Positions 12,494 through 16,782 of a DNA stretch of 64,000 bases are shown here, piece after piece; the stretch's first letter is position 1; each line of letters starts with the position of its first letter. A program made the translations under genes and the position numbers. Below the pieces are notes generated by a model. The model searched no databases. It worked only from the letters and a program-made list of their open reading frames with translations, and was not told where the DNA came from. The stretch comes from Stutzerimonas stutzeri (GTDB lineage Bacteria; Pseudomonadota; Gammaproteobacteria; Pseudomonadales; Pseudomonadaceae), in the NCBI RefSeq assembly GCF_024448895.1, contig NZ_JAMOIC010000007.1:1-64000 (forward strand). Direction: 5' to 3'.

Positions 12494-12913
12494 TTACTGA
12501 TCGATGATTTCACTGCGCATGGGCGCCAGACGGGCCAGCAAGCGATTCTGAGTCGGGATCGGCACCGCCTCGGCGGTCATCGAGGCTTGCAGGTTTTCCA
12601 CCAGCGCATTGAAGTCGCTCGGTGTCAGTGCTAGCCCCTTGTGGCTTTCTTCCATGCTGTCGCCGCTGTACACGCAAGGCCCGCCCGCTTCGGCGCAGAG
12701 CTGTTCAACGAGCTTGTCACGCACACGTTGAATGTCGACGTCTCGGAAGTGCTCGAAGATGCGCGGGTCCCCGGCAACCCTCAGCAGCATGCCCTCGACG
12801 ATCCGGCTGAGGCCCGGTTCGCCGCCGAGCTGCTGGTACAGGTCGTCATCGTTTGATGGCTGCTGAGCGCAGGCGGCGAGCAAGAGGCAGAGCAACACAA
12901 CGATCCGGTTCAT
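12494..12913 (-). CDS. Truncated-hemoglobin-like lipoprotein (group 1)
   Basis: 139 residues. The lipobox LLAAC (Cys15) anchors it to a membrane facing the periplasm. The globin part starts at LYQQLGGEPGLSRIV and has a CD-loop phenylalanine in IFEHF, then GGPCVYSGDSMEESHKGL. There His91 is at the proximal heme-ligand position, as in group 1 truncated hemoglobins. The usual distal tyrosine (the Y of FYARV) is replaced by leucine at residue 43, so ligand chemistry may differ or heme binding may be altered. Its start overlaps the stop of the DUF3034 gene by one base (TGATG); it is the last gene of a four-gene operon. Possible roles are oxygen, NO or redox sensing. Confidence 0.75.
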   Translation of the reverse strand: MNRIVVLLCLLLAACAQQPSNDDDLYQQLGGEPGLSRIVEGMLLRVAGDPRIFEHFRDVDIQRVRDKLVEQLCAEAGGPCVYSGDSMEESHKGLALTPSDFNALVENLQASMTAEAVPIPTQNRLLARLAPMRSEIIDQ

Positions 12914-13770
12914 CAGAAGCTCCCCTGAACGGACAGGTAGGCACCGTCCTGGTTGTCCAGCGTGGCGATTTCGCCGAGCCGCGCATAGGCCAGAACTACG
13001 GCGAGGCGCTTGTTGGGAAAATAGCCGAGAAAGACGTCGGCCCAGTCGCTTTCGCCCGCGAAGTACAGGTTGTCCGGCTTCTCCCGGTACTCGATACCGA
13101 CGGCCCAGCGCGGGTTGAACAACACGGCGGCCGAACCCTCCTTGAGCAAGCTGCGGCTGTCGCGGCGATCCCCACCGAAGCCTAGCAGGCCCAGCTCGTT
13201 GGCGCGGCTGTAACGCACTCCGCCGTTGAGCAGGAGGTTGTAGCCAAAAGCGCCGCCCAGGATCAGCCGACTCGCAGTGACATAGCCCTCGGTATCTTCA
13301 TCGCGCTGGGCGCCGATCAGCGAGGGGATGAGAAATTGCTTCTGGCGTTTGTGCTGCAGGCCCAGGGAAACCTGGGGCAGGCGGTCGTAGATCAGATCAC
13401 CGAAGAGACGGATTTTAACGCCAAAGATGTCCTGGCTGAGGCTGTTTTCCGGCAGCGACAAATCCCGCGCAAGCGTGCCGAGGTCGAAGCGTTGGCGGGC
13501 CAGGGACAGCTCCAGGCGATTGTCAAACGCGAACGCCATGCCGGCGACGTCCAGGCGGTAATCCCCGGTTTCGACGCGGGTCGCGAACACGTCACCGCCC
13601 CACTCGCCCCGCTCGCCATAACCGGCGAGCACGGCCCAGGGCGTAATGCCGCCGCCGGCCGCACCCTCGATACTGCTGGCGCCCCCGGTGGCCAGCAGAC
13701 GGCCAGCCTCTGCATTGGCCAGCGAGGGTATGCAGCAGGCGGCCAGCAACAAGGCTCGAAACAGTCTCAT
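12913..13770 (-). CDS. DUF3034 family protein (outer-membrane-type)
   Basis: 285 residues from ATG 13770, with AGGAG five bases before it; the longer frame runs into the upstream gene. A signal peptide ends near SLANA (residue 20). The mature start, LLATGGASSIEGAAGGGITPWAVLAGY, is the DUF3034 signature as I know it. The rest alternates strand-like segments and ends in aromatic YLSVQGSF, a C-terminal phenylalanine typical of outer-membrane beta-barrels. The function is unknown. It lies between the EAL protein and the globin lipoprotein in the same operon, which suggests a shared envelope or signalling task. Confidence 0.75.
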   Translation of the reverse strand: MRLFRALLLAACCIPSLANAEAGRLLATGGASSIEGAAGGGITPWAVLAGYGERGEWGGDVFATRVETGDYRLDVAGMAFAFDNRLELSLARQRFDLGTLARDLSLPENSLSQDIFGVKIRLFGDLIYDRLPQVSLGLQHKRQKQFLIPSLIGAQRDEDTEGYVTASRLILGGAFGYNLLLNGGVRYSRANELGLLGFGGDRRDSRSLLKEGSAAVLFNPRWAVGIEYREKPDNLYFAGESDWADVFLGYFPNKRLAVVLAYARLGEIATLDNQDGAYLSVQGSF

Positions 13771-16148: not shown

Positions 16149-16782
16149 CGGCGAAAGGCGTGGGTGCCGGGGTCTCGGGTTGTAGCGCAGCGGTAACAGC
16201 TACCGGCAGCGTCAGCTCTATCGGTGCGGCGCCCATCTGCAACAGTCCGGCATCGATGGGCTGCATATCGACCAGCGCTGGATGCCAGAGCGTCGCGGGA
16301 TAATGGCCGGCTGGCACGTTCAGCTGGATGCGCCCCTGCTCGTCGCTCACGGCGAACCAGGGGTCATCGGTGACGTACACGTAGCCAAGCATCCAGTCGT
16401 GGATGTTGCAGCCCAGGACTACCAGGCCCGGCTGGTCGAAGCTGACCGGCGCGCTCGGTGTGCCCTCGTAGAGTCGTAGCTCGAAGCGTTTCGTCGGTGA
16501 AAAGGAATAGACCTGATGCCGAATGTCATCGCGGTTGGGAAAGCTCACTTCCGTGCCTGTCGCAACGGCGAGGACTGCCGGTGAGAACTGCTTGTCAATC
16601 TGATCCATCACCGCAACAGCGGCGGACGTGCCGGTCGCTTTTCCGGCAAGACTGAGAACGGCACCCGCGACCGGCTGCCCCTGCGCATCGAAAACCTGCA
16701 CGCTAACGGGCCGAGCCTGCAATGGCACAGCGAGCGATAAACACAGGAGGAAACAACTGAACCGCAGGACACTCATGACCAT
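16108..16782 (-). CDS. Cupredoxin-like exported protein (methylamine utilization protein type)
   Basis: 224 residues, signal peptide ending near LQA (residue 23). A carboxypeptidase-regulatory-like start (VQVFDAQGQPVAGAVLSL) leads into a cupredoxin core. Likely type-1 copper ligands are His89 (DDIRHQVYSFSP), Cys125, His128 and Met131 (LGCNIHDWMLGY). Pipelines tend to name such proteins methylamine utilization protein, but no methylamine dehydrogenase genes are here, so that name should not be taken as function. The first ATG (16782) has GGAG eight bases upstream; 16776 is an alternative. It is the first gene of the operon with the EAL, DUF3034 and globin genes. Confidence 0.75.
   Translation of the reverse strand: MVMSVLRFSCFLLCLSLAVPLQARPVSVQVFDAQGQPVAGAVLSLAGKATGTSAAVAVMDQIDKQFSPAVLAVATGTEVSFPNRDDIRHQVYSFSPTKRFELRLYEGTPSAPVSFDQPGLVVLGCNIHDWMLGYVYVTDDPWFAVSDEQGRIQLNVPAGHYPATLWHPALVDMQPIDAGLLQMGAAPIELTLPVAVTAALQPETPAPTPFADAFRKAARAAPQP

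Follow-up and report, generated by a model that had tools for sequence, protein, structure and literature searches.

An exported cupredoxin encoded with an EAL receptor, a DUF3034 protein and a truncated globin in Stutzerimonas stutzeri: a conserved module and candidate envelope co-sensor system

By examining a 64,000-nucleotide stretch of Stutzerimonas stutzeri DNA (NCBI RefSeq assembly GCF_024448895.1, contig NZ_JAMOIC010000007.1, positions 1 to 64,000; the whole stretch is hereafter called the window), we found that four successive genes on its minus strand form a real and conserved module. They encode an exported cupredoxin (here called CUP), an inner membrane receptor with a predicted phosphodiesterase domain for cyclic di-GMP (c-di-GMP), a DUF3034 protein and a truncated globin. 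The module is one case of a wider theme, in which cupredoxins are encoded beside receptors of differing output, and it is undescribed within the open-licence literature searched. A sequence-only reading of the window had already pointed out the four overlapping genes, and open frames, Pfam matches, profiles and structural models all bear it out. Successive frames overlap by 41, 4 and 1 bases, the first value hinging on the choice of start codon. The genes and their parts are as follows, in window coordinates:

16108-16782, minus strand: CUP, exported cupredoxin, first of the four genes
16516-16518, minus strand: fourth copper ligand of CUP, H89 (alignment)
16390-16410, minus strand: type-1 copper ligand loop of CUP, C125-x2-H128-x2-M131 (alignment)
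13767-16148, minus strand: receptor, inner membrane, dCache_3-HAMP-degenerate GGDEF-EAL (Pfam, catalytic residues)
15444-16007, minus strand: dCache_3 periplasmic sensor domain of the receptor, residues 48-235 (Pfam, 2.2e-15)
15096-15245, minus strand: HAMP domain of the receptor, residues 302-351 (Pfam, 9.9e-16)
14622-15059, minus strand: GGDEF domain of the receptor with degenerate signature LTDEF (Pfam, 4.2e-23)
13845-14549, minus strand: EAL phosphodiesterase domain of the receptor (Pfam, 2.6e-74)
12913-13770, minus strand: DUF3034 protein, signal peptide assigned by eye, predicted 12-strand porin-like barrel (Pfam, model, Foldseek)
12494-12913, minus strand: lipobox-bearing group-1 truncated globin (Pfam Bac_globin, profile match to trHbN)
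12641-12697, minus strand: conserved globin residues, namely the Cys pair C73/C80 and the proximal His, H91 (alignment)

A total of 125 DUF3034 loci were examined, namely 45 from the genus and phylum searches, the annotated records and the window itself, together with 80 named loci, the latter being the best 80 of 557 relatives and skewed to Pseudomonas and Xanthomonadaceae. Merging of the pairs with identical DUF3034 proteins (L042/L129, L043/L123, L040/L079 and L081/L082) left 121 distinct loci, with 145 distinct receptors, 122 globins and 112 cupredoxins. Gene adjacency was read from open frames, and the tallies from genome searches are lower bounds, few candidates per genome having been scored (e.g. 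7 out of 24, or 5 out of 63, in genome G000). DUF3034 is patchily distributed, with occurrences in 5 out of 37 genomes within the genus (one of the five being the source of the window) and in 39 out of 398 genomes of the phylum sample. The best relative among the best 80 of 557, a set that may omit the records closest to the window, is that of Stutzerimonas zhaodongensis (DUF3034 at 91%).

A globin gene was found beside DUF3034 at all 121 distinct loci (L078 holding broken copies of the two), and the full set of four was found together at 107 of them (111 out of 125 with duplicates), in several orders and orientations. The order CUP-receptor-DUF3034-globin accounted for 103 of the 111, including the window and 14 loci with a second receptor, while the CUP-receptor pair was divergent from DUF3034-globin in six and the order DUF3034-globin-CUP-receptor occurred in two. 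The 14 incomplete loci were cut by a contig end (L085, L088 and L133), broken (L078), or had CUP without a receptor (L038, L048, L064 and L069), a receptor without CUP (L061) or neither (L046, L070, L072, L075 and L077). Five genomes with a receptorless DUF3034 locus (G267, G279, G300, G315 and G442) nevertheless hold a cupredoxin-EAL pair elsewhere. Among the 39 DUF3034 genomes of the phylum sample, 37 had a receptor and 38 a cupredoxin, and annotated records of Caballeronia and Novosphingobium agree with the gene set. Fisher p-values for the co-occurrence take no account of relatedness among the genomes. The sequence-only reading had staked its proposal on such a neighborhood survey, and the strong co-conservation across Pseudomonadota led us to reject a chance arrangement. 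As CUP-receptor pairs are also found alone and DUF3034-globin nearly always accompanies such a pair, the module thus consists of two units.

No further partner gene was clearly conserved, the largest flank cluster spanning 9 out of 44 loci. DUF3034 was also present in 13 plasmid records (Caballeronia 9, Novosphingobium 3 and Paraburkholderia 1). A phage origin was rejected, as 56 pattern matches were obtained in viral contigs, none of them encoding a relative. The broken DUF3034-globin copy of L078 lies in genome G133, which has an unbroken pair as well.

CUP had been described from the window as an exported protein with His-Cys-His-Met copper ligands, and these residues (H89, C125, H128 and M131) proved invariant in 24 out of 24 aligned relatives. 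The C..H..M loop is kept in all 115 cupredoxins, 112 of them distinct, and a pattern for the upstream His fits 113 of the 115; the two misses, a frame cut at the contig start (L157) and one with an insertion (L064), still hold the His in their sequence. No Pfam copper family matched CUP, and CarboxypepD_reg appeared below threshold only. The profile of the CUP family matched copper nitrite reductase (6e-6), pseudoazurin (0.004) and amicyanin (0.015), and the AlphaFold2 model, with a mean predicted local distance difference test score (pLDDT) of 87, has a cupredoxin fold whose top Foldseek matches are NirK, a purple cupredoxin, amicyanin and pseudoazurin. By modeled fold and type-1 ligand set, CUP is a cupredoxin and a predicted copper protein. 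It resembles amicyanin, pseudoazurin and the cupredoxin domain of NirK in both respects, the C-x2-H-x2-M spacing being that of amicyanin, and it differs from them by extra N- and C-terminal parts in the model. Annotated relatives of CUP are named 'methylamine utilization protein' or 'carboxypeptidase regulatory-like domain-containing protein'. A role in methylamine utilization was not favored, as no methylamine dehydrogenase or similar neighbor was noticed among the flank clusters recurring over 44 loci, a survey that included no dedicated search for mau genes.

The receptor had been proposed to be a membrane sensor with a live EAL domain, and its predicted activity agrees: the eight residues that we take to be the catalytic set (E564, N622, E654, D684, D685, K705, E741 and Q761, i.e. 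ENEDDKEQ) are all present in the window. By alignment they are complete in 144 out of 145 distinct receptors. Counted by frame they are complete in 149 out of 150 (125 out of 126 at DUF3034 loci, 13 out of 13 in stand-alone cupredoxin-EAL pairs and 11 out of 11 others), the sole exception, L119, being a short frame that lacks the EAL portion. The GGDEF signature is intact in only 29 of the 145 distinct receptors, and the LTDEF of the window does not fit the signature of a diguanylate cyclase. Since the EAL residues are kept and the GGDEF signature mostly is not, phosphodiesterase activity would be the conserved output, and the residues point to hydrolysis of c-di-GMP. A degenerate receptor of the LapD type was rejected, the LapD model scoring 138.8 bits, below its cut-off of 1020, and the EAL residues being intact. 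Ten distinct Pseudomonas loci (L042 (=L129), L043 (=L123), L111, L114, L116, L118, L119, L122, L125 and L126) encode, upstream of the cupredoxin, an additional receptor with dCache_3 and EAL domains, and one cupredoxin may therefore serve two receptors there. In L104 and L106 a second receptor follows the globin.

The remaining two proteins had been recognized as a barrel-like DUF3034 protein and a globin lipoprotein. The former matches its Pfam family at 1.7e-110, and its model is a 12-strand porin-like barrel of moderate confidence (pLDDT 69; weak at residues 8-52, 195-200 and 236-239), with FapF, NanC, OmpG and KdgM among the Foldseek matches; from this model, it is likely an outer-membrane barrel. 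The globin (Pfam Bac_globin, 1e-13) is assigned to the group-1 truncated globins (trHb1) by its profile and its proximal His, and its best solved profile relatives are mycobacterial trHbN (3.5e-25). The window globin has a lipobox-like LAAC, and a lipobox-like pattern occurs in 102 out of 125 globins, the remainder having plain signal peptides or uncertain starts. Export signals were recognized by eye on CUP, the DUF3034 protein and the globin, in agreement with the earlier view that all but the EAL output face the periplasm.

Out of the 122 distinct globins, 120 have C73, 121 have C80 and all have H91, and both Cys are lost together in L101, as expected of a pair. The distal residues of trHbN are Tyr B10 and Gln E11, whose roles are known. 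In the present family, B10 is Leu, Val, Ile or Met in 119 and E11 is Leu or Phe in 121 of the 122 distinct globins, and the window globin, with Leu at both positions, lacks the polar distal residues of trHbN. This apolar pocket speaks against the usual O2-binding or nitric oxide (NO) dioxygenase role of the trHbN type. The globin shares the proximal His with trHbN, and differs from it further by its export signal and by the Cys pair, which is not in the trHbN sequence compared. Downstream of the globin gene lies a second copy of its 3' end, forming a direct repeat of 104 nucleotides (window 12250-12353 and 12490-12593; 91% identical, spacing 240), with a putative element of the repetitive extragenic palindromic (REP) type between the copies.

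The wider theme emerged from cupredoxins in other settings. The phylum sample contained 70 matches to CUP, 59 of them strong (E<=1e-30) and 11 weak, of which ten were inspected (G443 being left out). An EAL receptor adjoined 43 of the strong matches and a receptor of another output four (L208, L210, L212 and L214), while in L213 a histidine kinase was found about 1 kb away. A receptor also adjoined four of the ten weak matches inspected. Among 61 matches to short cupredoxins, 30 loci were inspected, and 19 of these had an adjoining receptor with a HAMP domain (one fused, and two being profile seeds). The base rate of HAMP was 17 out of 678 non-neighboring frames, counted over a subset of the loci that includes the window.

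Beside long or short cupredoxins, 36 non-EAL receptors were collected, chosen for a nearby HAMP frame and hence informative on kinds of output, not on rates. They comprise eight nucleotide cyclases (L208, L210, L289, L305, L306, L308, L309 and L325), seven Ser/Thr kinases (L212, L310-L313, L323 and L324), nine histidine kinases (L213, L214, L296, L298, L300, L301, L302, L303 and L307), six hybrid kinases with receiver and Hpt domains (L218 and L290-L294) and six chemoreceptors (L219-L221, L287, L288 and L295). In three of them (L213, L305 and L324) the receptor lies 0.8-1.7 kb from the cupredoxin. The dCache_3 domain is retained above the Pfam cut-off with a changed output in the cyclases L208, L210, L306, L308 and L309 and the Ser/Thr kinases L212, L310, L323 and L324, and below the cut-off in the histidine kinase L307. 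DUF3034-globin adjoins a short cupredoxin and a histidine kinase in L302 and L303, and a short cupredoxin alone in L304. The constant part is consequently the cupredoxin with a transmembrane sensor, and DUF3034-globin is an add-on pair. The sequence-only reading had proposed control of c-di-GMP breakdown, and the EAL site at the module is complete; the cupredoxin family, however, occurs with at least five other output types and is not bound to c-di-GMP. In L217 (approximately 4800-6977), a short cupredoxin was noticed by eye between frames resembling a MauG-like diheme peroxidase and a cytochrome c.

Where one periplasmic metalloprotein stays constant while the receptors beside it are exchanged, the arrangement is that of an accessory sensor, as with H-NOX and NosP and their kinases and c-di-GMP enzymes (PMC8846402). 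By this analogy, the reading that we favor for the cupredoxin is that of a co-sensor in the periplasm whose receptors can be swapped. We propose that the four genes constitute an envelope signaling module, in which CUP, a soluble periplasmic co-sensor, would dock on the receptor at its dCache_3 ectodomain. The copper state of CUP, most likely Cu(I)/Cu(II) redox, would set the receptor via the HAMP domain, and the EAL domain would then degrade c-di-GMP. The exported globin, with its heme, apolar pocket and Cys pair, and the DUF3034 barrel would make up another unit, which would feed or tune CUP, e.g. by serving as heme redox partner and as anchor or channel in the outer membrane. Co-sensing of this kind would operate elsewhere on cyclases, kinases and chemoreceptors. 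The folds and motifs, the complete EAL site, the co-conservation and the exchange of outputs are computed results, whereas we infer the docking, a redox signal, the regulatory direction and the step from globin to cupredoxin; we judge the explanation as a whole, i.e. CUP as co-sensor, redox input, EAL output and a globin-DUF3034 unit, to be somewhat probable.

Several observations weigh against this proposal. Linkage of genes does not equal contact between their products. Genome G133 has DUF3034-globin with no match to the cupredoxin or the receptor, G076 has no receptor match, and G196 and G180 hold receptor and cupredoxin at separate places. Out of the 59 strong CUP matches, 11 have no neighboring receptor; three of these have DUF3034-globin only (L048, L064 and L069), and L209 ends near a contig start. 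In four others of the 11 (L193, L195, L199 and L200) the cupredoxin adjoins a porin-like gene with no receptor, and may act without one. These porin-like neighbors are about 400 residues long, with a sub-threshold Porin_4 match in L199 and no Pfam match in the others, and a porin-like protein is a possible second kind of cupredoxin partner. Likewise, 11 of the 30 short-cupredoxin loci have no adjoining receptor, although L256 has one a gene away. No dCache_3 is matched in the remaining cyclases or in receptors that adjoin short plastocyanin-like cupredoxins, several having 4HB_MCP instead, and the ectodomain is therefore not constant in the wider theme. In L300 the histidine kinase frame (L300:1526-3679) runs through a hydrophobic stretch into the cupredoxin, with DUF3034-globin divergent; this could reflect a genuine anchored fusion, or a stop lost between two genes. 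Lastly, the loci share no promoter motif among seven patterns tried in 115 upstream regions. Two forms of the ANR pattern, one RpoN form and FleQ gave zero matches, while the other RpoN form gave 2 against 0.15 in shuffles, a NorR-like pattern 10 against 6.3 and a LasR-like pattern 64 against 71.7. No sigma-70-like site was found in the examined stretch of the locus.

Rather than a redox state, the receptor could read apo versus holo cupredoxin, in which case the module would be a sensor of copper availability and copper excess or shortage would alter c-di-GMP. Against such a sensor, buried blue sites with four ligands usually bind their copper tightly, and no copper export or homeostasis family was noticed in the recurring flank clusters (each in at most 9 out of 44 loci, the largest having been left without a family assignment); the globin would also be left unexplained. 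The conserved type-1 copper ligands agree with it, as does PA14_37690, another GGDEF-EAL receptor, whose CHASE4 ectodomain is reported to bind copper (PMC13277305; this and the other papers are cited from partial texts). We regard this explanation as unlikely.

Somewhat less probable still is that the heme globin is the true sensor, of NO or carbon monoxide (CO), with the cupredoxin as a relay to the receptor. The globin is present at every distinct DUF3034 locus, its apolar distal pocket would disfavor O2 and permit NO or CO, and stand-alone heme sensors, H-NOX and NosP, are known beside c-di-GMP enzymes and kinases (PMC8846402). However, cupredoxin-receptor pairs without a globin are common, and the globin is therefore not the constant part; the NorR-like half-site, in 10 of the 115 upstream regions, gives no clear signal above shuffles. 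It is improbable that an envelope electron-transfer or outer-membrane pathway comes first, with cupredoxin, globin and barrel performing redox or transport and the receptor regulating or reporting it: the porin-like neighbors in the four receptorless loci, the porin-like, FapF-like fold of DUF3034 and, by eye, the cytochrome-like frames in L217 would fit such a pathway, but the receptor accompanies the cupredoxin more often than any other partner, its outputs are exchanged, and no oxidase or dehydrogenase was noticed among the recurring flank clusters.

The co-sensor proposal has parallels in known systems. In YfiB-YfiR-YfiN, a periplasmic protein and an outer-membrane part control a membrane c-di-GMP enzyme, and H-NOX and NosP are cytoplasmic heme proteins sensing NO. 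What the module would have in common with the latter two is control of effectors of several output classes by a small, stand-alone metalloprotein (PMC8846402), and it differs in that an exported blue-copper protein is found beside transmembrane receptors. HmsC, a cysteine protein controlling the cyclase HmsD, likewise acts from the periplasm on a c-di-GMP enzyme of the membrane and takes periplasmic redox as its input (PMC8846402). Unlike HmsC-HmsD and YfiBNR, which we compared by description only, the module has a cupredoxin and an EAL phosphodiesterase with a dCache_3 ectodomain. The CHASE4 receptors PA14_53310 and PA14_37690 couple envelope heme or copper to GGDEF or GGDEF-EAL, the cofactor there being bound by the receptor ectodomain itself (PMC13277305). 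The DUF3365/Tll0287 Cache sensors carry an envelope metal cofactor and bind NO, with a c-type heme held covalently inside the Cache domain (PMC12889525), whereas here the metal protein is separate. By analogy, such copper-binding CHASE4 and c-heme Cache domains make a metal input to receptors of this kind plausible (PMC13277305, PMC12889525).

The sequence-only reading knew of no described system of this make-up, and none was found in our search of open-licence papers either. The two papers in that literature that mention DUF3034, as far as their partial texts go, do not concern this system. The word 'cupredoxin' did not occur in the main text of PMC13277305 as far as available, GGDEF, EAL or globin did not occur in the available part of the copper-proteome survey PMC6769254, and copper or cupredoxin did not occur in that of the c-di-GMP sensory review PMC8846402. 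The new element is the gene combination and the pattern of output swapping, the parts themselves being of known kinds.

With respect to its surroundings, the module lies between two closely similar genes for proline-permease-like proteins, PutP-like by eye (window 10526-12121 and 17352-18836). Further off are an open frame with curlin-like repeats, also by eye (window 6741-7832), and a frame of 1373 residues with lower GC content and repeated C-terminal segments (window 287-4408).

Cupredoxins are known as electron carriers, and their pairing with receptors of differing output points to an undescribed way of sensing outside the inner membrane. We suggest, tentatively, that blue-copper proteins might be general periplasmic co-receptors of Pseudomonadota, reporting envelope redox to interchangeable receptors, with DUF3034-globin as a second, heme-based input. 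If cupredoxins are co-sensors, the redox or copper state of the envelope would be linked directly to c-di-GMP, cyclic-nucleotide, phosphorelay, Ser/Thr-kinase and chemotaxis signaling. A first functional frame would furthermore be at hand for DUF3034 and for truncated globins that are exported, the label 'methylamine utilization protein' could be corrected, and tests of the input would become feasible for many orphan dCache_3 receptors.

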